This document shows, piece after piece, positions 13,846-60,376 of a stretch of 64,000 nucleotides of DNA. The first letter of the stretch is position 1. Each line of letters begins with the position of its first letter. The position numbers and the translations under genes were made by a program. The notes under the pieces are model-generated. The model made no database searches. It saw nothing but the letters and a program-made list of their open reading frames with translations, and was not told the DNA's origin. Source of the DNA: Gemmatimonadales bacterium (GTDB lineage Bacteria > Gemmatimonadota > Gemmatimonadetes > Longimicrobiales > Gaopeijiaceae); the NCBI GenBank assembly GCA_020344755.1, contig CP070829.1:130454-194453 (forward strand), in the 5' to 3' direction.

Positions 13846-15123
13846 GTGTCGCGAATCGATTTCACCTTCCACCGACACACCCTGGAGAACGGACTTCGGG
13901 TCGTGGTGGCGCCGGACGCCTCCCGCCCCGTGGTGGCGGTGAACCTCTGGTACGGTGTGGGCTCCCGAAATGAGCGGAGAGGCCGGACGGGCTTCGCCCA
14001 TCTCTTCGAGCACATGATGTTCCAGGGCTCGGCGCACGTTCCCAAGAATCAGCACTTCGAGCTGGTGGAGCGGGCGGGTGGCTCCCTGAACGCATCGACC
14101 TGGTTCGATCGGACCAACTACTTCGAGACGCTCCCGTCGCACCACCTGGACCTCGCGCTGTGGCTCGAATCGGATCGGATGGGGTGGATGGTCCAGGCCA
14201 TGACCCAGGAGAAGCTGGACAACCAGCGCGACGTGGTGAAGAACGAGAAGCGGGAGCGCTACGACAACCGACCCTATGGGGATTGGCAGGAGAGACTCCA
14301 GCGGATGGTCTGGCCGGAGGATCACCCCTACCGCCACACCGTCATCGGATCCATGGAGGACCTGGATGCGGCGACTCTCGAGGACGTGGCGGATTTCTTC
14401 AACACCTTCTACGTCCCGAACAACGCGGTCCTGACGGTGGCGGGCGACGTGGACCCGGACGATGCCCTCCGCCGGGTGGAGCACTGGTTCGGCGAGATTC
14501 ACCGTGGAGCCGCGGTCCCGGAGCTTCCCGGCGACACGGCGGCGTCCATTCCCATGTCGGCGCCGGTGGTGGACGAGGTCGAGGCCGATGTTCCCCTGCC
14601 TCGTGTGATGATGGGGTTCCGGATTCCCGCCTACACCGATCCCGGGTTCGCGGCGCTGGAGGTGGCCGGGTCCGTCCTGGGGGCCGGTCGGGCATCCCGG
14701 CTCTACCGGAACCTGGTGCGAACCGGTGTAGCCAGGGATGCGTTCAGCTACCCGTTTCCCCTGGTGAGCGGTGCGTCCATCCTCCTGGTGGGCGTGACGG
14801 GGTTTCCGGAGTCGGATCCCGGGGAGCTCGCGGAAGCGGTCCGCCACCAGCTCCGGGGGCTCGTGCAGGTGGAGGAGAGCGAGGTGGCCCGGGGACTGGC
14901 CCTGGAGGAAGCCAGGCTGGTGCGGGCGCTGGAGGGGCTGGGCGAGAGGGCCGACCGGATCTCCATGAGCACCATGCTCTTCGATCGGCCGGAGCGGATT
15001 ACCGAGGAGCTGGAGGACCTTCGGGCCGTGTCACTGGCCGACGTCCACGACGCCGCGGACCGATTCCTGGCCACGGAGAATCACGCCACGCTCCTGTACC
15101 GACCCAACGAGGCAACGGCATGA
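13846..15123 (+). CDS. M16-family zinc peptidase, catalytic subunit
   Basis: 425-aa M16 (pitrilysin/PqqL-like) peptidase. The inverted zinc motif HxxEH is seen as FAHLFEHMMF near residue 50, and the distal glutamate ligand lies in DVVKNEKRERYDN about 75 residues on. The GTG start at 13846 is preceded by GGGGAGG at 13831-13837, a good ribosome binding site, and leads directly into the family's N-terminal HTLENGLRVVV strand. No clear signal peptide. Its stop overlaps the start of a second M16 gene (ATGA), the usual arrangement for a heterodimeric M16 enzyme. Confidence 0.9.
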   Translation: MSRIDFTFHRHTLENGLRVVVAPDASRPVVAVNLWYGVGSRNERRGRTGFAHLFEHMMFQGSAHVPKNQHFELVERAGGSLNASTWFDRTNYFETLPSHHLDLALWLESDRMGWMVQAMTQEKLDNQRDVVKNEKRERYDNRPYGDWQERLQRMVWPEDHPYRHTVIGSMEDLDAATLEDVADFFNTFYVPNNAVLTVAGDVDPDDALRRVEHWFGEIHRGAAVPELPGDTAASIPMSAPVVDEVEADVPLPRVMMGFRIPAYTDPGFAALEVAGSVLGAGRASRLYRNLVRTGVARDAFSYPFPLVSGASILLVGVTGFPESDPGELAEAVRHQLRGLVQVEESEVARGLALEEARLVRALEGLGERADRISMSTMLFDRPERITEELEDLRAVSLADVHDAADRFLATENHATLLYRPNEATA

Positions 15124-16478
15124 GCGGCGCGAACCGAACGACCCCACCGAAGGCGGGGCCCTTGAGGGATTTCGCTTTTCCGACAGTGGTCCGATCCCGG
15201 CTCGACACCGGTCTGGCGGTGGACGTGGTGCCCATCCATCACCTCCCGGTAGCCACCGCCTTCCTGGTGATCCCCGCCGGAGAGGACACCCTCTCCGAGG
15301 AACGGGCAGGTATCGCCGTGCTCGCAGGCGATGCCCTTGAAGGGGGGACGCGCCGGCGGTCCGGCGTGGAGCTGGCGGAGGCCCTCGAGACGATCGGGGC
15401 GGACCTGGATGTGGGAACGGGTTGGAATGCCACGACGGTGTCCCTGTCGTGCCTGGCCGACCGGTTGGACGAGGCTCTCGGGCTGCTCGGGGAGATGGTG
15501 CTCGAGCCGGCCTTCCCCGAGGCCGAGGTGGCGCGTACCCGGGGACAGCACCTCGCCCGGATCCAGCAGCGGAGCATGGATCCCGGGGCGCTGGCCTCGG
15601 ACCGGGCCGCCCGTGAGATCTACGCTCCAGGGGAGCCCTACGGCCGCCCCCTCCTGGGGAGCTTGGAATCCGTCGCCGATATGGGGCGTGACTCCTTGAT
15701 CGGATTCGCCGAGAGCTACTACCGCCCCGAAGGAGGGGGACTGGTGGTGGCGGGCGACGTGGACCCGGACGAGGTGCGCGCCCTGGCGGCAGGGATCTTC
15801 GGAGGTTGGGAGGGTGCTCCCCCGGTGCGATCCTCACCCAAGGGCGTGGCCCGGTCCCTGGAACGCCGGATCGTGGTGGTGGACCGCCCCGGATCGGTGC
15901 AGTCGGAGCTCCGGATGGGTCATCCCGGGGCACCCCGGAACGTGCCGCGGTACGAATCCCTGGTGGTCGCCACCGCCGTCCTCGGGGGGACCTTCTCCTC
16001 CCGCCTCAACCTCAACCTGCGGGAGAAGCACGGCTTCACCTACGGCGTCCGCAGCCGCATCGCCTACCGGCGTGGCCCCGGGCCCTTCAGCGTGGTCACC
16101 GCCGTGGACACCGCCGTGACGGCCCGAGCCGTTCAGGAGGCGGTGGGGGAGATGGAGCGGTACGTGCGCGATGGACCGACGAAGGAGGAGGTGGCGTCCG
16201 CCCGGGACTACCTGGCGGGAATCTTCCCGCTCCGGCTGGAGACCACGGGCCAGGTGGCGGCGCGGGTGGCGGAGTTGAGGGTGTACGATCTGCCCGACGA
16301 CACCTGGGCGGGCCACCGCGAGCGCATCCGGGCCGTGACCCGGCGTGCTGCAACGGAGGCGGCTCGGGAGCACATCCGCCCCGGGGAGCTCGCCATCACG
16401 GTGGTCGGCGATGCCGCCGCCGTGGTCCCGGAACTGGAGGGGCTGGACCTGGGTCCCGTGGAAGTGCACACTCCCTGA
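15120..16478 (+). CDS. M16-family peptidase-like protein, non-catalytic subunit
   Basis: 452-aa M16-fold partner of the preceding gene. The position of the HxxEH motif reads AGIAVLAGDALEGGT, so the zinc ligands are missing. The C-terminal half retains the typical substrate-binding R/Y region (LNLNLREKHGFTYGVRSRIAYRRG). In characterised M16B heterodimers one subunit carries zinc and the other contributes the Arg-Tyr pair; that division fits this pair. The ATG overlaps the previous stop by 4 bp. No signal peptide is obvious. Confidence 0.88.
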   Translation: MSGANRTTPPKAGPLRDFAFPTVVRSRLDTGLAVDVVPIHHLPVATAFLVIPAGEDTLSEERAGIAVLAGDALEGGTRRRSGVELAEALETIGADLDVGTGWNATTVSLSCLADRLDEALGLLGEMVLEPAFPEAEVARTRGQHLARIQQRSMDPGALASDRAAREIYAPGEPYGRPLLGSLESVADMGRDSLIGFAESYYRPEGGGLVVAGDVDPDEVRALAAGIFGGWEGAPPVRSSPKGVARSLERRIVVVDRPGSVQSELRMGHPGAPRNVPRYESLVVATAVLGGTFSSRLNLNLREKHGFTYGVRSRIAYRRGPGPFSVVTAVDTAVTARAVQEAVGEMERYVRDGPTKEEVASARDYLAGIFPLRLETTGQVAARVAELRVYDLPDDTWAGHRERIRAVTRRAATEAAREHIRPGELAITVVGDAAAVVPELEGLDLGPVEVHTP

Positions 16479-33194: not shown

Positions 33195-35471
33195 GTGACC
33201 TCCATCTCCCGTGCATTCCCCCGCCTGACGGCTGGGCTTCTTCCGGCATTGTGCGTGTTCTCCCTCCCCTTGGGGGCGCAGGACGCCGGGGGCGTGCCTA
33301 CCGGCGCAGCGATTCGTGCCGAGGCACCGGTGCAGGTGGACGGCCGCCTGGACGAGGCGGCCTGGAGCCAGGCGCCGGCGCTGGCCGGATTCATCCAGTC
33401 CGAACCCTTCGAGGGGGACCCGGTGACCGAGGAGACCGTGGTCCGTGTCCTCTATGACGACGATGCCGTGTACGTGGGTGCGTGGCTCCTGGACACCGAC
33501 GTGGAGGGACTGGTGTTCGGCGAGACCCGCCGGGACGCCGCCATGGAGGAGACGGACGCGATCCTCTTCGTGCTGGATACCTACCTGGACCGGCAGAACG
33601 GCTACGTCTTCGGGACCACGCCGGCGGGGATCGAGTACGACGGCCAGGTCACCCGGGAGGGGCAGGGGGGCTTCGGAGGTGCCCGGATGATGGCCGGGTC
33701 CATGTCCGGGGTGAACACGAACTGGGATGGTTCCTGGGAGGTGGCGACCCACCGGGATGGGGCCGGGTGGTACGCCGAGTTCCGGATTCCCTTTTCCACC
33801 CTCCGGTACGACCGGGGTGGGGAGCAGCGGTGGGGCTTCAACGTGGTGCGGCGCATCCGGCGGAAGAACGAGGAGGCCTTCTGGTCGCCCGTGCCCCGCC
33901 AGTTCGACCTGTACCGCATCTCCATGGCCGGAACCCTGGAAGGCATCGAGGCGCCCTTCCGTCGGACCGCGCAGGTGACACCGTACGTCCTCGGCTCGAG
34001 CCGATGGGCGTACCTGGACGCCGACGGCGAAGCCTTTCTGGACGGGGCCTCGGAGCGGACCGGCGACTTCGAAGTGGGAGGAGACGCGAAGTTCGCCCTG
34101 AGCCCGTCCCTGACCCTGGATGCCACCGTCAACACCGACTTCGCCCAGGTAGAGGTGGACGATCAGCAGGTGAACCTGACGCGGTTCCGGCTGTTCTTTC
34201 CCGAGAAGCGGCCCTTCTTCCTGGAGAACGCCGGCACCTTCTCGGTGGGTACACCCCAATCCGTGGAGCTCTTCTTCTCCCGGCGCATCGGCATCGAGAG
34301 CGGCTCCGAGGTGCCCATCCTCGGGGGAGGGCGCCTCACCGGACGGGTGGCGGGTCTCAACGTGGGGCTCCTGAACATCCAGACCAAGGAAGTGGAGGGA
34401 GTGGCCCCGGCCAACAACTTCTCCGCGGTCCGCACCTTCCGGGAATGGGAGAACCGGACCCGCCTGGGAGGCACCTTCGTCTCCCGGCTGAACACCCAGG
34501 ACGGCGACGACTACAACCTCACGTACGGGCTCGACGGGCGGTTGGGGATCGGGGAGTCCCTGACCCTGGACGGATACGCGGCCTTCACCGACACGCCTGC
34601 GGACGCCGAGACCCCCGAGGACCGGACCGGTGAGTATGCACTCTCCCTGAGCGCCGAGTACACCAGCCGGGACTGGGAGGGGGGGCTGGCCGTCCGGGAG
34701 GTGGGCGAGGGCTTCAACCCCGAGGTGGGATTCCTCGACCGGGGTGCGTACCGGGTCTACTCGGTCCGGCTCCTGCGGAAGTACCGCTTCGAGGGGGCAG
34801 AGTGGTTCCGGGAGCTGCGGCCCCACGTTTCCCACCGGGAATTCCGGGACCTGGACGGGTTCATCGAGACACGCCTGATCCACGTGGATTCCCACTTCGA
34901 GTTCTCCAACGGGGCCTTCTTCCAGCTCCCCGCCATCAACTTCACCCGGGAGGGTCTGAAGGACGACTTCGAGATCGCCGAGGGGATCGTGGTGCCCGCC
35001 GGGACGTACGACAACGTGGAGTGGGGATTCCGCTACAACACGGACCGGAGCGCTACCCTCTCACTCGAGGGGCGCATCACGATCGGGGGCTTCTACTCCG
35101 GGAACCGAGCCGGATCCGACGCGACCCTGAACGTCCGCCTCGGGGAGACCTTCGTCACGGGTCTCCGGGTGGACTACAACGACGTGAACCTGCCCGAGGG
35201 CGACTTCGCCACCCGGCTGGTGGGCCTGAAGACGGCGTATTCCTTCACCCCGCGCATCTACCTTCAATCCCTGCTGCAGTACAACGATCGAACCGACACC
35301 TTCAGCGCCAACCTCCGTTTCGGGTGGCTGAATACGGCAGGAACCGGACTCTTCATCGTCTACAACGACCTGCGGAACACCGAGACCTTCGACCGGGTTG
35401 GCATCCCGCGGGGCCCGCTGGACCGGACCCTGATCCTGAAGTTCACGCGGCAGTTCAACCTGGGAGGGTAG
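33195..35471 (+). CDS. DUF5916 outer-membrane-type protein with CBM9-like N-terminus
   Basis: 758-aa exported protein. A signal peptide covers residues 1-31 (LTAGLLPALCVFSLPLGAQ). Residues about 40-230 form the CBM9-like domain of this family (VDGRLDEAAWSQAPALAGF, DTYLDRQNGYVFGTTPAG, EFRIPFSTLRY). The rest is DUF5916, rich in alternating strands with DATVNTDFAQVEVDDQQVN and LFFPEKRPFFLENAGTFS, and it ends in a phenylalanine-containing strand as expected for an outer-membrane barrel. The GTG start gives the signal peptide. Its last 56 bp, including the stop, are duplicated 1497 bp downstream. The ligand is unknown; carbohydrate binding is suggested by the domain only. Confidence 0.85.
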   Translation: MTSISRAFPRLTAGLLPALCVFSLPLGAQDAGGVPTGAAIRAEAPVQVDGRLDEAAWSQAPALAGFIQSEPFEGDPVTEETVVRVLYDDDAVYVGAWLLDTDVEGLVFGETRRDAAMEETDAILFVLDTYLDRQNGYVFGTTPAGIEYDGQVTREGQGGFGGARMMAGSMSGVNTNWDGSWEVATHRDGAGWYAEFRIPFSTLRYDRGGEQRWGFNVVRRIRRKNEEAFWSPVPRQFDLYRISMAGTLEGIEAPFRRTAQVTPYVLGSSRWAYLDADGEAFLDGASERTGDFEVGGDAKFALSPSLTLDATVNTDFAQVEVDDQQVNLTRFRLFFPEKRPFFLENAGTFSVGTPQSVELFFSRRIGIESGSEVPILGGGRLTGRVAGLNVGLLNIQTKEVEGVAPANNFSAVRTFREWENRTRLGGTFVSRLNTQDGDDYNLTYGLDGRLGIGESLTLDGYAAFTDTPADAETPEDRTGEYALSLSAEYTSRDWEGGLAVREVGEGFNPEVGFLDRGAYRVYSVRLLRKYRFEGAEWFRELRPHVSHREFRDLDGFIETRLIHVDSHFEFSNGAFFQLPAINFTREGLKDDFEIAEGIVVPAGTYDNVEWGFRYNTDRSATLSLEGRITIGGFYSGNRAGSDATLNVRLGETFVTGLRVDYNDVNLPEGDFATRLVGLKTAYSFTPRIYLQSLLQYNDRTDTFSANLRFGWLNTAGTGLFIVYNDLRNTETFDRVGIPRGPLDRTLILKFTRQFNLGG

Positions 35472-35475
35472 CCCG
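35420..35475 (+). repeat. 56-bp direct repeat, upstream copy
   Basis: This copy covers the last 17 codons of the DUF5916 gene, its TAG stop and 4 bp beyond. It matches 36917-36972 at 55 of 56 positions (G35453 versus A36950). The two copies lie 1497 bp apart, a multiple of three. The repeat also carries the GGGAGGG ribosome-binding sequence used by the next gene. Confidence 0.95.
35462..35468 (+). promoter_or_regulatory. Ribosome binding site supporting an ATC start
   Basis: GGGAGGG is separated by exactly 7 nt from the ATC codon at 35476 that begins the NAD-binding protein's conserved N-terminus. It lies inside the DUF5916 coding end and inside the 56-bp repeat. No ATG, GTG or TTG exists in this frame between the preceding in-frame stop (35437-35439) and the GTG at 35560, which is inside the Rossmann fold. 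Confidence 0.55.
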
Positions 35476-36930
35476 ATCCACGTACTGGTTACCGGCGCCA
35501 CCGGCTACATCGGCGGGCGCCTCGTCCCGCGGCTCCTGGCGGCGGGCCACCAGGTCCGGGTGCTGGTCCGGGACGTGGACCGGCTCGCGGACCGTCCCTG
35601 GACCGACCAGGTGGAGAAGGTGGAGGGGAACGTGCTGGATCCCGGCGTGATGCAGCGCGCCCTGCGGGGGATCGACGCGGCGTACTACCTGATCCACTCC
35701 ATGTGCTCAGGGCCCGACTTCGCACGGCGGGACCGGGAAGCGGCGCGGTCCTTCGCCGAGGAGGCCGGGCACCTCAAGCAGGTGATCTATCTGGGGGGGA
35801 TCCTACCGGACGAGACGACGGTGCGGAACTCGAAGCATCTCCGCTCCCGGGCGGAGGTGGGGGAGATCCTCCGGGAGCGACTCCCCACCACCGAGTTCCG
35901 GGCCGGACCCATCATCGGATCCGGGTCCGCCTCCTTCGAGATGGTGCGCTACCTCACGGAAAGGCTCCCGGCCATGGTGGCACCCCGCTGGATCGAGCAC
36001 GAGGTGCAGCCCATCGCGGTGCGGCACGTCCTGGACTACCTGGTGGCGGTCCTGGGCCGGGAGGACGCGGTGGGGGTCATCGACATCGGGGGCGAGGTCC
36101 TGACCTTCAAGGAGATGATGCTCGGGTACGCCCGGGTGCGCGGTCTGCCCCGGGTCATCATTCCCGTCCCCGTGCTGGCACCGGGGCTGGCCGCCCTCTG
36201 GGTCGGGCTCGTCACCCCGATTCCCAACTGCCTGGCGGTTCCCCTGGTGCGGGGGATGGTGCGGCCCGTCGTCGGGGACCTGACCCGGGCCCGAGCGCTC
36301 TTCCCGGAGATCCATCCCATGGGCTACCAGGAGGCCGTGGAGCTGGCGCTGGACCGGACCCGGGAGGAGAGCGTGATGACCCGGTGGAGCGATGCCGTGG
36401 GCCGGGACGAGACCTTCGAGTTCGAGGACCGGGAAGGCCTGGCCCGGGAGGTGCGCACGCGGCTGGTGGACGCCCCGTCAGAGGCGGTCTTCAAGGCCTT
36501 CACCTCTCTGGGCGGGGACCGGGGCTGGCTGGTCTGGAACTGGGCCTGGAAGGCCCGAGGTCTTCTGGACCAGGTGGTGGGCGGGCCCGGGCTGCGCCGC
36601 GGGCGCAGGGACCCGGCCGAGCTGCGGCGGGGCGACGCCGTGGACTTCTGGCGGGTAGAAGAGATCCAGGAGCCCCGGCTCCTCCGGTTGCGGGCGGAGA
36701 TGAAGCTACCCGGGCGGGCCTGGCTCCAGTTCGAGGCGGAGCCGGAGGACGGGAAGACCCGGCTGGTCCAGGCGGCCCTCTTCGCGCCCCGGGGTTTCCT
36801 CGGTTGGCTCTACTGGTACAGCGTCTACCCGTTCCACCGCCTGATCTTCGACCATCTCATCGACGGCGTGGCGGAGCTGGCGCGGGAGATCACCGAGGCG
36901 GAGCAGGGCGACCCCCGGACCGGACCCTGA
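35476..36930 (+). CDS. NAD(P)-binding epimerase-like protein with DUF2867 domain, apparent ATC start
   Basis: 484-aa protein if translation starts at ATC. Residues 1-300 are an atypical short-chain dehydrogenase/NmrA-like domain: HVLVTGATGYIGGRLVPRLL with the GxxGxxG motif at residues 7-13, then DAAYYLIHSM and FRAGPIIGSGSASFEMVRYL. The last 150 residues are DUF2867/SRPBCC-like (EVRTRLVDAPSEAVFKAF, LFAPRGFLGWLYWYSVYPFH). The first standard start (GTG at 35560) would remove the cofactor motif. Its final codons (..RTGP) and stop lie in the downstream copy of the 56-bp repeat, so both gene ends abut the repeat. It may be an inserted or rearranged gene. Function beyond cofactor binding is unknown. 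Confidence 0.78.
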   Translation: MHVLVTGATGYIGGRLVPRLLAAGHQVRVLVRDVDRLADRPWTDQVEKVEGNVLDPGVMQRALRGIDAAYYLIHSMCSGPDFARRDREAARSFAEEAGHLKQVIYLGGILPDETTVRNSKHLRSRAEVGEILRERLPTTEFRAGPIIGSGSASFEMVRYLTERLPAMVAPRWIEHEVQPIAVRHVLDYLVAVLGREDAVGVIDIGGEVLTFKEMMLGYARVRGLPRVIIPVPVLAPGLAALWVGLVTPIPNCLAVPLVRGMVRPVVGDLTRARALFPEIHPMGYQEAVELALDRTREESVMTRWSDAVGRDETFEFEDREGLAREVRTRLVDAPSEAVFKAFTSLGGDRGWLVWNWAWKARGLLDQVVGGPGLRRGRRDPAELRRGDAVDFWRVEEIQEPRLLRLRAEMKLPGRAWLQFEAEPEDGKTRLVQAALFAPRGFLGWLYWYSVYPFHRLIFDHLIDGVAELAREITEAEQGDPRTGP

Positions 36931-36972
36931 TCCTGAAGTTCACGCGGCAATTCAACCTGGGAGGGTAGCCCG
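36917..36972 (+). repeat. 56-bp direct repeat, downstream copy
   Basis: Near-identical copy of 35420-35475. Here it follows the NAD-binding gene, whose TGA stop (36928-36930) is inside the repeat in a different frame. Read in the DUF5916 frame it still encodes the same C-terminal peptide (LILKFTRQFNLGG) and stop, but with no DUF5916 sequence in front of it. Confidence 0.95.
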
Positions 36973-37001: not shown

Positions 37002-37289
37002 TCAGGCGAAGCGCCACTCCTTCCAGCGGAGTCCCACGCCCGTCTGCCCCTGGTCCGGTGAGACCCGGGTCACGGACCCCGTTCCGGTCACCCGCCTCAC
37101 CTCGTTGGCCGCCCGGGGGAAGAAGATCTCGACGGGCAGGTCCGCACCCTCGTCGAAGGGCTGATCACACACGGCGTAGAGACCGCTGGAGCTCAGGTTC
37201 CTCGACTCGGCGCGGATGCCGGCCAGGGTGACCACGAGCCGCAACTCGTAGCGGTGGGCACCGCGCCGGTCGGGTTGTTGGGATTCCAT
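37002..37289 (-). CDS. PilZ-domain protein
   Basis: 95-aa stand-alone PilZ domain, a family that often binds cyclic di-GMP. The start RRGAHRYELRLVV corresponds to the RxxxR arm and NLSSSGLYAV to the D/NxSxxG motif, here with Asn in place of the usual Asp. FFPRAANEVRRVTGTGSVTRV and GVGLRW complete the barrel. Cytoplasmic. The Asn substitution is tolerated in some family members but leaves nucleotide binding uncertain. It is convergent with the repeat-flanked gene and 103 bp downstream of the M14 pair on the same strand. Confidence 0.85.
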   Translation of the reverse strand: MESQQPDRRGAHRYELRLVVTLAGIRAESRNLSSSGLYAVCDQPFDEGADLPVEIFFPRAANEVRRVTGTGSVTRVSPDQGQTGVGLRWKEWRFA

Positions 37290-37392: not shown

Positions 37393-39165
37393 CTAACGCA
37401 GTCGCACCGTGGTGCTTACCGTCCCGCCCTTCTGCGAGTCGTATTCCACCGTAAGCGAGCCGGAGCCCCGCACCAGATATTCGATCACGCGGGTCGTCCT
37501 TCCCGGCGCGCCACTCCGAATCAGGATGCGGTCCAGCTCCGCCTGGTCGATCCGCTGGGTGGGCCCTGGCCGGTGCACGTCGTCCACCCAGCCGGCGGTG
37601 ATGATCTCCACGTTTCCTTCCACCGAGAGGATGTCGGGGCGGACGATCCGGTTCTCGCGGGCTCGGGCGGTGACGGTGGGGATGAGGCGCTCGTTGCGGA
37701 TCGGGACACGCACCCGCCACACGTCGCCACCGACCCGTTCCACCGATGCCTCACCCATGGTCATGAGGGGCATCTGGTCGGCGTGGTAGAGGGTGAAAGC
37801 CATGTTTCGGTGAAAGAGCTCTATGCTGAGGAAGCGGGGGTTCACCCGCCCGCTGAGCTTCTTCCACCCTCCCATCTCCACCGCCCCGTAGACCGGATGG
37901 TCGAAGGGCGCCCATTCCACGTACTGGTCCCCGAACTCCAGGAAGTCGTCGAAGAAGAAACGGGAACGCTGCCCGGAGATGGGGGAGTCCGGATCCTGCT
38001 GCTGCTCCTGGAGGAGGGGGGAGTTGAAGTACTGACCCCCGTTCCACAGCTCGTTGGAGAAGGAGACGACCCCCAGGCCGTCGTTGGTCCAGTCGATGGA
38101 CCCCCCGTGCACCGTGTAGAGCCCCTGCCAGATCACGTAGTAGTTGTAGTACGGCAGGATCCGCTCCCCGTTCTCCCCCAGCTCGTCGTACACCCGGATG
38201 TCCGCCGCCGGGTAGTCGCCGTACCAGGCCATCCCCGGGCCTCGCAGGATCATCCCGCCGGTGTTATGGAAGGACTGGAAGCCGGCGATGTTCGGCCGGG
38301 TCATCATGAAGTCGTTGATGGCCCGGGCTTCCGGCAGCTGGAACGGATAGTCCATGGAGCCGCCCTGGATGTAGTTCGGCTGCCAGTCGGAGCCGTAGTT
38401 CCGATTGGGATCGTAGCCCCCCACCGGATCCTCGTTTACGCGCCCGTCCCCGTCGTTGTCCAGTCCTTCGGACCCGAGGAGGACCCAGTCGCCGACCTCA
38501 CCCGGGGGAACCGGCTCCATGATGCGCGGATCGTCGTGGCTGATCCGGAAGTCCCCCTCTCCGGGGACGTACTTCCGGATCTGCTCGATGACCCCGTTCC
38601 CGTTCAGGTCGTCGGGTCCGTCCTCGTCGAAGAGCCCGTCCCCGTCGGAGTCCACGGGGACGTGACCGGTGCGGGCGCCGGAGCCTGTCCCGTCCAGGAA
38701 GTAGTCCCGGCCGTCGGGATTCACGCTGGGGAGGAGATAGAAGACCCGCTCGTCCACCATTCGCCGGACGTCGGGGATCCGGTCGTAGTTCTCCATGAGG
38801 TACCAGATGGTGTAGAGCACGACCTCGGCCCCCTGGATCTCGTTCCCGTGGACGTTGGCCTCGATGAACATCCCCGCCTTCTCCAGCTCGCTTCCGGTGG
38901 CGGGGTTGTTGATGGTCATGAGCCACATCTCCCGACCCCCGTAGCTCTGCCCCAGCGACTGAAGGGAGAGGAATTCGGGCCAGGTCTCCGCCATGAGCTG
39001 CATCCGCTCGCCGATCTCGTCGTGATCCAGCCATCGGTCCCAGGTGAGGGGCAGGGTGTGCTCCGGGTCGGAGCCCCGCTCCTGCTGGGCCGCCGCCGGG
39101 GCGAGGGCCGGACCCGCCAGCGTCAGGATCGTCACGACGGCCAGTGTGGTGATGTTCTGCTTCAT
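37393..39165 (-). CDS. Secreted M14-family zinc carboxypeptidase
   Basis: 590-aa exported M14 peptidase. The signal peptide is TTLAVVTILTLAGPALAPAAAQ. The zinc motif ANVHGNEIQGAE is intact, followed by DPNRNYGSDW for substrate binding, FQSFHNTGGM with the third ligand His, and SFSNELW with the catalytic Glu. Two Asp-rich stretches, VDSDGDGLFDEDGPDDLNGN and GLDNDGDGRVNEDP, look like calcium-binding DxDxDG repeats inserted in the catalytic domain. The C-terminal 150 residues are an extra beta-type domain. Its ATG overlaps the stop of the upstream M14-like gene, so the two are co-translated. Confidence 0.9.
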   Translation of the reverse strand: MKQNITTLAVVTILTLAGPALAPAAAQQERGSDPEHTLPLTWDRWLDHDEIGERMQLMAETWPEFLSLQSLGQSYGGREMWLMTINNPATGSELEKAGMFIEANVHGNEIQGAEVVLYTIWYLMENYDRIPDVRRMVDERVFYLLPSVNPDGRDYFLDGTGSGARTGHVPVDSDGDGLFDEDGPDDLNGNGVIEQIRKYVPGEGDFRISHDDPRIMEPVPPGEVGDWVLLGSEGLDNDGDGRVNEDPVGGYDPNRNYGSDWQPNYIQGGSMDYPFQLPEARAINDFMMTRPNIAGFQSFHNTGGMILRGPGMAWYGDYPAADIRVYDELGENGERILPYYNYYVIWQGLYTVHGGSIDWTNDGLGVVSFSNELWNGGQYFNSPLLQEQQQDPDSPISGQRSRFFFDDFLEFGDQYVEWAPFDHPVYGAVEMGGWKKLSGRVNPRFLSIELFHRNMAFTLYHADQMPLMTMGEASVERVGGDVWRVRVPIRNERLIPTVTARARENRIVRPDILSVEGNVEIITAGWVDDVHRPGPTQRIDQAELDRILIRSGAPGRTTRVIEYLVRGSGSLTVEYDSQKGGTVSTTVRLR

Positions 39166-57453: not shown

Positions 57454-57494
57454 GGCGGGCCCGCCGGCGCGTGAGGGGACGGCGCCCGCCCCCC
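57454..57494. repeat. 41-bp REP-like dyad, copy 1
   Basis: Matches 60321-60361 at 39 of 41 positions. Its ends GGCGGGC/GCCCGCC and inner GCCG/CGGC arms form a hairpin with a 2-nt bulge; the two differences between copies fall in the bulge and the loop, leaving the stem intact. It lies 30 bp after the methyltransferase stop. Confidence 0.7.
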
Positions 57495-57517
57495 CCGCCC
57501 TCCGGGAAATCCAAGAG

Positions 57518-57577: not shown

Positions 57578-60238
57578 TCACCGGGGGACTCGCCGCTCCA
57601 ACTCGCCGAACCAGTTCTGGACGACGATCAGTCGCGGTTTCGACTCGTCGCCCCTCTCGTGGCGCCGCACCATGAGGAAGCGCTGGTCGTCCGGCGTGAT
57701 GTCGTACAGTCCCCCGATCCACCGGTAGAGGTTCGACTCGTAGGTGGGCTGGATCTGGAACAGTACCTGGCGGTTCAACACCCGGAACCCGCTGGAGCCG
57801 TCGTAGGTCAGGGAGACGAGACGGTGGTCCCCGTCGACGTAGAAGAGCTCCCGGCCGTTGTGGGCCCACAGGGGCATGGAGCCGCCACCAGTGGAGAGTT
57901 GCCAACGGCCCCGGTCCACCTCGGGGAACGGCCTCACGAAGACCTCCTCCTGGCCCGTCTCGGTGGAGACGTACGCGATCCAGCGGCCGTCCCGAGACAC
58001 TTCGGGTCCCGTCTCCTCGGCGGGTCCCGCCGCGACGGGGAACATGACGGAATCCCGGTCCGGCCGGATCGCGGTGATGTCCCGTCCCCCCTGGGTGTTC
58101 CGGAACCCTCCGGCCCGCATCACCAGGTGCTCTCCGTCCGGTGCCCAGAAGCCCTGTGCCAGGAAGCCGTCCCGGGGTTCGAAGATCAGCTCGGCGTCGC
58201 CGAGCCCGTCGGCGGGCTTCTGCCAGGCGGCGTAGGTTCCCGTTCGATTCGAGATGAACGAGATGGTCGTCCCGTCCGACGACCAGCGAGGCTGCCGGTC
58301 CTCGGCTTCGTGGAAGGTGAATCGGGCCGGGGGTGCGCCTCCGATCTCCTTGATCCAGATGTCGTACCCGGCCTCGGTCCACGCTCTGTACGCCAGACGC
58401 CCGCCGTCGGGGGAGAGGCGCCACCCCCGGTCGGCGTTCCCCGCGTCGAAGGTCCATCCCGGCTCCACCGCCCGGGCCACCCCCGTCCGGTCCACCCAGA
58501 CGAACTCGTCCTCCGCGAAGGTCCCGGTCCAGTAGAGGAGGGTCCCGGTGGACGAAATGGCGTAGAAGGGCCGACCGAGCCCCGTCTGGACGACGTCCGG
58601 GATCACGGCAACCGGGGTTCCCGCGACCCGGGCGGTGCCCGCGTCGAACGGGACGGCCATGAGCCCACCCTCGGCTCCGTAGACCAGGTAGCCGTTGGCG
58701 GCGAGGTCCGCGCCGGCTCCGTTAAGGACGTGGTGGACCTCCCCGCTCGACAGATCCAGCGCCTCGATCCGGGTGGGGCCGCGGCCGGCCACGGTGTAGA
58801 GCAGCCACCGGTTTCCCGGTAGGACCAGGGGATAGAGGTGGACTGTCCCCTCCTCTGGGGTGGTGAGGGGTTCCGCATCCCCGCCCTGTCGAGGGATCCG
58901 GGCGAGCCCTCCGCCGGGGGCGCCGAAGTAGACCTGCCCGTCACTCCCCCAGTCCGGCTTCGTCATTCGGGCGGGCGCCAGCTCCCGCACGGGTCCGCCG
59001 TCCACCGGCGTGACCTGGAGCCGGCCCGCCTCCTGGCCTCCAGCGAAGTAGAGAATCTCGGTGCCGTCCGGAGAGATGGCCGCGGCGGCTCCCGGGTCCG
59101 TGCCCGGGAGGGGGGTCCACTCCAACTCGTCCAGCCGGCGGACCCAGAGCCCCACCACGTCGTCGGCACCCGGCCGGGACATGACGAGGGTGGAGCCGTC
59201 GTCCGAGATGTCGATGCTCGACTGGGGGTCCCTCTCCGGAGGAATCTCCAGTGAGAAGATCTCCAGGGGAGCGTCGGGGGGCGCGTCATCGGACGACAAG
59301 AGGGACCATCCTAGGGCTGCGGCCAGGAGGACGCTGAGGACAGCGAGTCCACGGTTCACTCTCACCGGCGCCGCTGCGCCTGGACCCTCCGGGCCGTGCC
59401 GGAATCCCGCATCCTCCAACGCGCGGACCATGTCCTGCAGGCTGGCGAACCGGTCCGCCGGGACTCTCTCCAGGCACTTTCGGATGGCGGCATCCACGTT
59501 GGCGGGAACGCTGGGACGGTCGTCGCGGACCGAGACCGGTTCTGCGCTGATGATCCGCCCCAGGACCGCCTGCGCGGTGGAGCCGGTATAGGGCGGTCGC
59601 CCCGCGAGCATCTCGTAGAGGACGCATCCCAGGGAGAAGGTATCCGTCGACGGTCCCACGGAGGCCTCCCCAGTGGCCTGCTCGGGGCTCATGTAATAGG
59701 GCGTGCCGACACTCAGCCCCGTCTCGGTGAGGCGGGCCCCGGCGCTAGCGCCCAGTGCCAGGGCGATCCCGAAATCCCCCACCACCGGTTGGCCGCCCTG
59801 GAAGAGGATGTTCGCCGGCTTGATGTCCCGGTGCACGACGCCCCGCTGGTGCGCGTAGTCCAACGCCGTGGCCACCGCGGCGGCGATGCGAACCGCCTCC
59901 TCCACCGGGAGCTGCTGCTCCCGGTCCAGGCGGTCCCGCAGGGATTCCCCCTCCAGGAGGGGCATGACGTAGAAGAGGAAGCCATCGGCTTCCCCGGAGT
60001 CGTAGAGCGGGAGGATATGGGGATGCTGCAGGTTCGCCGTGGTCTCGATCTCCCCCAGGAAGCGTGCCGCTCCCACCACGGCTGCGAGCTCAGGGTCCAA
60101 CACCTTCAGCGCCACCTGTCGGTTGTGCCGCAGGTCCCGAGCCCGGTACACCGTGGCCATTCCACCGCGACCGAGCTCCGACTCGAGTCGGTAGCGGCCG
60201 TCGAGTGCCGTGTTCAGACGGGGGAGGGTGTCGGACAT
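57578..60238 (-). CDS. PknB-type Ser/Thr protein kinase with C-terminal beta-propeller
   Basis: 886-aa transmembrane kinase. The kinase domain (about 1-280) is complete: LGRGGMATVYRA, Lys45, HRDIKPAN (Asp138), DFG (Asp155) and YYMSPEQATGE. A membrane helix (GLAVLSVLLAAALGWSLL) follows at about 296-315. The remaining 560 residues are a TolB/WD40-like propeller with repeats such as AAISPDGTEILYFAG, WRLSPDGGRLAYRA and PEVSRDGRWIAYVS. In this phylum the architecture is common. The ATG at 60238 fits the family start. Both flanks carry a copy of a REP-like dyad. Confidence 0.9.
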   Translation of the reverse strand: MSDTLPRLNTALDGRYRLESELGRGGMATVYRARDLRHNRQVALKVLDPELAAVVGAARFLGEIETTANLQHPHILPLYDSGEADGFLFYVMPLLEGESLRDRLDREQQLPVEEAVRIAAAVATALDYAHQRGVVHRDIKPANILFQGGQPVVGDFGIALALGASAGARLTETGLSVGTPYYMSPEQATGEASVGPSTDTFSLGCVLYEMLAGRPPYTGSTAQAVLGRIISAEPVSVRDDRPSVPANVDAAIRKCLERVPADRFASLQDMVRALEDAGFRHGPEGPGAAAPVRVNRGLAVLSVLLAAALGWSLLSSDDAPPDAPLEIFSLEIPPERDPQSSIDISDDGSTLVMSRPGADDVVGLWVRRLDELEWTPLPGTDPGAAAAISPDGTEILYFAGGQEAGRLQVTPVDGGPVRELAPARMTKPDWGSDGQVYFGAPGGGLARIPRQGGDAEPLTTPEEGTVHLYPLVLPGNRWLLYTVAGRGPTRIEALDLSSGEVHHVLNGAGADLAANGYLVYGAEGGLMAVPFDAGTARVAGTPVAVIPDVVQTGLGRPFYAISSTGTLLYWTGTFAEDEFVWVDRTGVARAVEPGWTFDAGNADRGWRLSPDGGRLAYRAWTEAGYDIWIKEIGGAPPARFTFHEAEDRQPRWSSDGTTISFISNRTGTYAAWQKPADGLGDAELIFEPRDGFLAQGFWAPDGEHLVMRAGGFRNTQGGRDITAIRPDRDSVMFPVAAGPAEETGPEVSRDGRWIAYVSTETGQEEVFVRPFPEVDRGRWQLSTGGGSMPLWAHNGRELFYVDGDHRLVSLTYDGSSGFRVLNRQVLFQIQPTYESNLYRWIGGLYDITPDDQRFLMVRRHERGDESKPRLIVVQNWFGELERRVPR

Positions 60239-60320: not shown

Positions 60321-60361
60321 GGCGGGCCTGCCGGCGCGCGAGGGGACGGCGCCCGCCCCCC
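60321..60361. repeat. 41-bp REP-like dyad, copy 2
   Basis: Second copy of the dyad at 57454-57494, in the same orientation, with the same stem preserved. It lies 16 bp downstream of the stop of the minus-strand sortilin-like gene. Each copy thus sits just after a gene's 3' end, as REP elements commonly do. Confidence 0.7.
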
Positions 60362-60376
60362 GCGCGCCCGGCGGGT

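Follow-up and report, generated by a model that had tools for sequence, protein, structure and literature searches.

Cis-mobilizable elements (CIMEs) are decayed ICEs or IMEs that have kept only their att sites. CIMEs of 1.2–13 kb without recombination genes have been described, as have composite islands at the 3' ends of genes (PMC7563491). The locus analysed here resembles CIMEs in that a cargo of suitable size lies between direct repeats of a gene 3' end. It also resembles the scars left by tandem duplication and deletion or by template switching, as these likewise consist of a short, unique and near-identical direct repeat at one locus only.

The window, that is the whole stretch of 64,000 nucleotides that we analysed (G000:C1:130454-194453), starts directly after a 100-N run of the record. 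In it, a single gene is framed by two copies of a 56-bp repeat made of the end of the gene upstream:

33195..35471, plus strand: gene of a DUF5916/CBM9-like outer-membrane-type protein of 758 aa; ORF with stop TAG at 35469-35471 (Pfam PF19313, E=2.6e-18)
35420..35475, plus strand: repeat copy 1; 1 nt and the last 16 DUF5916 codons (DRTLILKFTRQFNLGG), TAG and 4 bp
35462..35468, plus strand: GGGAGGG, Shine-Dalgarno-like in sequence and putative in function, 7 nt before ATC 35476
35476..36930, plus strand: gene of an NAD(P)-binding (NAD_binding_10/NmrA) and DUF2867 protein, 484 codons from ATC (PF11066, E=2.1e-33; PF13460, E=2.3e-13; start placed by homolog starts)
36917..36972, plus strand: repeat copy 2, with one mismatch (A36950); provides the stop codon of the NAD gene
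37002..37289, minus strand: PilZ-domain gene, convergent, 29 bp past copy 2 (PF07238, E=3.1e-5)
37393..39165, minus strand: M14 zinc carboxypeptidase, the first of two M14 genes that are conserved as a pair, with 3' neighbours that vary between genomes

The 56-bp repeat and the gene between its copies

A first-pass annotation of this DNA had reported the repeat with its coordinates, one mismatch and 1497 bp between the copy starts, and a repeat search with alignment confirmed all of this. The copies are identical at 55/56 positions (~98%), with exact shared runs of 33 and 22 bp. The sole mismatch is G35453 in copy 1 against A36950 in copy 2, which turns CAG into CAA and is synonymous in the DUF5916 frame. 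The annotation described the repeat as 17 codons, the stop and 4 bp; the TAG and the 4 bp stand, whereas the codons are really 16 full ones and 1 nt. In content, the repeat is the conserved C-terminal beta-strand of DUF5916 with its stop. DRTLILKFTRQFNLGG is the conserved end of the DUF5916 family; homologs in relatives finish in a similar motif, and some of them in the same GGAGGGTAG DNA. At the mismatch position CAG is the usual codon in relatives, and it is copy 2 that deviates.

When we scanned the 4.10-Mb record with up to 3 mismatches, only the two copies were found. The reversed-sequence control in the same scan gave zero matches, and dinucleotide shuffles of the window gave no chance match to the repeat. 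Further genes bounded by this sequence, for which the annotation had suggested a search, did not appear in the genome scan. Two additional properties of the repeat were considered and rejected. An extension into the 5' end of the NAD gene is unconvincing, as the flanks agree at 17/29 positions (~0.001 by random pairs), far under the 98% of the repeat itself. A role of the 56 bp as a hairpin or terminator was also discarded, as both copies fold worse than shuffled sequences (z +1 to +2).

The interval between the copies contains exactly one gene, as annotated: a single ORF in which a Pfam search finds an NAD_binding_10/NmrA domain and then DUF2867. Its product is a YbjT-like protein. Coding sequence fills the interval from the base after copy 1 to the start of copy 2, with no non-coding DNA between the copies. 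The stop of the gene, TGA 36928-36930, lies within copy 2, which had also been noted, and the C-terminus at this right junction is inside the range of homolog C-termini. The composition of the gene is ordinary (GC3 0.93, compared with 0.86–0.90 in its neighbours). If the two copies recombined, the NAD gene would be lost and DUF5916 would stay whole, as the annotation proposed and in agreement with the anatomy.

The left junction is less regular. The annotation placed the first codon of the NAD gene directly after copy 1; the position is correct, but the codon is ATC (35476-35478), which is not a common start. Among 51 distinct homologs, 41 show a start codon no more than two codons away, and in nearly all of these it is an ATG or GTG at the very same position. 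One homolog (L261) has ATC at the same position and an in-frame TTG 15 codons upstream. In the NAD ORF of the window, the stretch that runs from the upstream stop to the Rossmann motif contains no in-frame ATG, GTG or TTG. With ATC at the homolog start position and a stop that comes from copy 2, the ORF thus lacks an ordinary start as well as a stop of its own. AUC has been listed as a rare initiation triplet of bacteria against which IF3 discriminates (PMC4611024). Since GGGAGGG lies 7 nt ahead, initiation at the ATC is the likeliest reading, and, judged from the sequence, translation most plausibly begins at 35476.

Local repeats and related genomes

We surveyed local repeats in ~800 kb, sampled as 450 kb contiguous around the window and a scattered 400 kb in 20-kb pieces. 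The sole comparable case in the contiguous 450 kb, that is a sharp, near-identical and non-tandem one, is a 45-bp pair at 57454 and 60321; the other long local repeats there are conserved domains or paralogous genes that have diverged. No further comparable repeat came from the scattered 400 kb, where the cases left over consist of tandem repeats and of conserved motifs. The 45-bp pair (57454-57498 and 60321-60365) is a GC-rich hairpin direct repeat with 3 mismatches that frames a Ser/Thr kinase gene (57578-60238). Its neighbours, a methyltransferase-like and a sortilin-like gene, both point toward the kinase gene; these gene names were read off the translations and not from a family search. 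Genome-wide, the 22-bp core of the pair occurs in these two places only. The pair may be a duplicated terminator hairpin.

Repeats of other kinds were seen in passing. Within the window, an identical 27-bp repeat (14436-14462 and 15746-15772) encodes VAGDVDPDD at two places in a region of what are probably M16-like peptidase domains. A same-genus genome carries a ~4.5-kb tandem duplication of ~88–96% identity (G002:C1:2827785-2836584, L178).

Homologs of DUF5916 are present in 57 of the 58 relatives searched, and the NAD gene was found at E ≤1e-100 in 56/121 genomes of the family. When gene order around DUF5916, around the NAD gene and around the M14 pair was compared, the 58 relatives shared none of the window flanks besides the M14 pair. 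In every genome examined, the M14 pair beside PilZ has 3' neighbours unlike those of the window. Synteny is lost between relatives at ~60% identity, and the neighbourhoods are shuffled across the family. No homolog locus examined contains a co-oriented DUF5916-NAD pair; in G017 and similar genomes, a DUF5916 paralog (30–38%) lies ~1 kb from the NAD gene in divergent orientation. With no co-oriented pair and with shuffled, unshared flanks, no empty site was found in the relatives. The annotation had looked to DUF5916 loci with and without the insert, or to relatives with both genes adjacent. The relatives supplied the DUF5916 genes but, as their flanks differ, no such comparison, and none of the loci examined has the adjacent co-oriented pair. 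We also searched 394 genomes of the class for the junction DNA; the matches in G226, G193 and G002 that cross from the tail region to the beginning of the NAD gene were short or chance matches without an adjoining DUF5916 tail and were dismissed.

In a tree of 44 NAD proteins, the window copy groups with L102 (72% identity), outside a well-supported clade of four same-genus copies. Related sequences also occur in Thermus, Armatimonadota and Planctomycetota. Both the tree placement and the occurrence in other phyla suggest that the NAD gene is often exchanged or reshuffled.

Possible origins of the repeat

The reported structure is confirmed and somewhat unusual; what we see is likely an ordinary rearrangement scar. 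Specifically, we read the locus as the scar of an unprogrammed, illegitimate local duplication and not as a mobile cassette, a reading that, in the order given here, we hold with middling confidence. We infer that the NAD/DUF2867 gene would have been placed directly behind DUF5916 by the shuffling of operons that is common in this lineage. This would have produced a compact DUF5916-NAD pair with a 4-bp gap, in which DUF5916 glycine codons (GGAGGG) could double as the ribosome-binding site. A duplication would later have added the 56-bp DUF5916 end again, this time where the NAD gene terminates. It could have been a tandem duplication of the tail plus NAD from which the second copy of NAD was subsequently lost, or a templated insertion through polymerase template switching. 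Copy 2 would now be the source of the NAD stop codon, and the gene would be translated from the rare ATC, helped by the strong Shine-Dalgarno sequence and by coupling. The rearrangement was most likely small and recent.

An all-coding interval with its left junction at the homolog start position favours such a compact gene pair over a random insert, and the mismatch lies in copy 2, off the usual CAG of relatives, which fits copy 2 as an unconstrained duplicate. The shuffled family neighbourhoods, the unique and sharply bounded repeat, the interval without an integrase and the absence of a detected Ku in the genome also count for a duplication scar. Against the prior pair stands that a DUF5916-NAD pair without the second copy is in no relative examined. 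Furthermore, the two-step tandem duplication requires an unseen intermediate, and the one-step templated insertion fails to explain why no native stop follows copy 2. We slightly favour the copying of the tail downstream of an existing pair over a history in which the NAD gene was inserted and its target duplicated. In such an insertion, an NAD fragment without native start and stop would have been captured between the convergent DUF5916 and PilZ genes, at the 3' end of the former, and the 56-bp target would have been doubled by staggered-break fill-in or a similar illegitimate repair. We consider both the capture and this way of doubling the target possible but rather unlikely. The annotation had proposed a cassette insertion at this place; it draws support from the lack of a co-oriented pair beside any NAD homolog examined and from the tree, which puts the gene with L102 and apart from the four same-genus copies. 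The change from ATG or GTG to ATC suggests that the left junction may have removed the start of the NAD gene itself, which favours insertion. An ordinary start codon is lacking at the left junction and an ordinary stop at the right one, and the ATC behind a TTG in L261 leaves room for it. However, a captured fragment should bring flanking non-coding DNA, and there is none; the interval has no transposase or integrase, the lack of a detected Ku weakens the end-joining versions, and the composition of the gene is ordinary. A 56-bp target duplication also far exceeds what transposons are known to make. In favour of insertion, the kinase gene is a second gene on the same contig that is framed by a unique repeat between convergent genes. 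That one contig has two genes framed in this way is suggestive, but no claim can be built on so small a number. That this lineage has an unrecognised process by which single genes enter between convergent neighbours while ~45–56 bp of target are duplicated at each end, with the NAD gene (35476) and the kinase gene (57578) as products, is highly improbable. If insertions with long target duplications did recur, they would hint at an unknown mechanism for moving single genes.

The annotation also suggested attL/attR-type borders, for which we found no positive support. An integrative element would have entered the DUF5916 3' end and decayed in a CIME-like manner until the NAD cargo alone was kept. 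An intact gene, a cargo and a displaced 3'-end fragment are the geometry of 3'-end integration, CIMEs of fitting size are known (PMC7563491), and two tyrosine recombinases over the Pfam cut-off are encoded elsewhere in the genome. However, the interval holds neither an integrase nor a recombination-gene remnant and has no non-coding ends, no third att-like copy within 3 mismatches exists in the whole genome, IMG/VR viral contigs contain no exact match to the repeat, and the relatives searched, their DUF5916 loci included, showed no such site past a gene end. We thus regard att borders as very unlikely. Somewhat less so, although still improbable, is an assembly artefact or strain chimera. The record consists of many contigs joined by 100-N runs and shortening toward its end, which points to a draft assembly, probably a MAG, and leaves some ground for the assembly duplication that the annotation had allowed for. 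However, the ~105-kb contig that carries the repeat has no N and extends well beyond it on both sides, one base distinguishes the copies, their exact runs are short, and ordinary reads should span 56 bp; we do not favour an artefact. The least probable explanation is that copy 2 was retained by selection, for instance as a regulatory element or as a recombination switch that deletes the NAD gene. Direct repeats of this length can recombine with loss of the intervening gene, but the copies fold no better than shuffles (z +1 to +2), the arrangement is unconserved in relatives, and no sign of a switch system was seen.

Comparison with described systems

As in a CIME, direct repeats stand at both ends of the interval (55/56) and one of them completes the target gene, DUF5916 being intact at copy 1. 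Unlike CIMEs, the locus has no att relatives, integrase or element remnants, and its interval is wholly coding; a site shared with an integrase-bearing element was found neither in the genome nor in viral contigs nor at the DUF5916 loci of relatives. The interval also differs from a transposon with a target-site duplication, as it contains no transposase and the repeat search listed no inverted repeat that pairs its two ends.

With duplication scars the locus further shares junctions at a gene end and the lack of mobility genes. It differs from them in that the intermediate is unobserved here and that the repeat gives a stop codon and possibly a ribosome-binding site. We see in it mainly a well-preserved example of a gene re-bounded by rearrangement, with its start context and its stop codon coming from the duplicated end of a neighbour.

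Finally, the NAD gene encodes a full-length two-domain protein like the YbjT-like NAD(P)-binding and DUF2867 proteins, with ~60–72% identity to homologs in Gemmatimonadota and other phyla. Unlike these homologs, it has ATC at the start position and takes its stop codon from the neighbour-end repeat.
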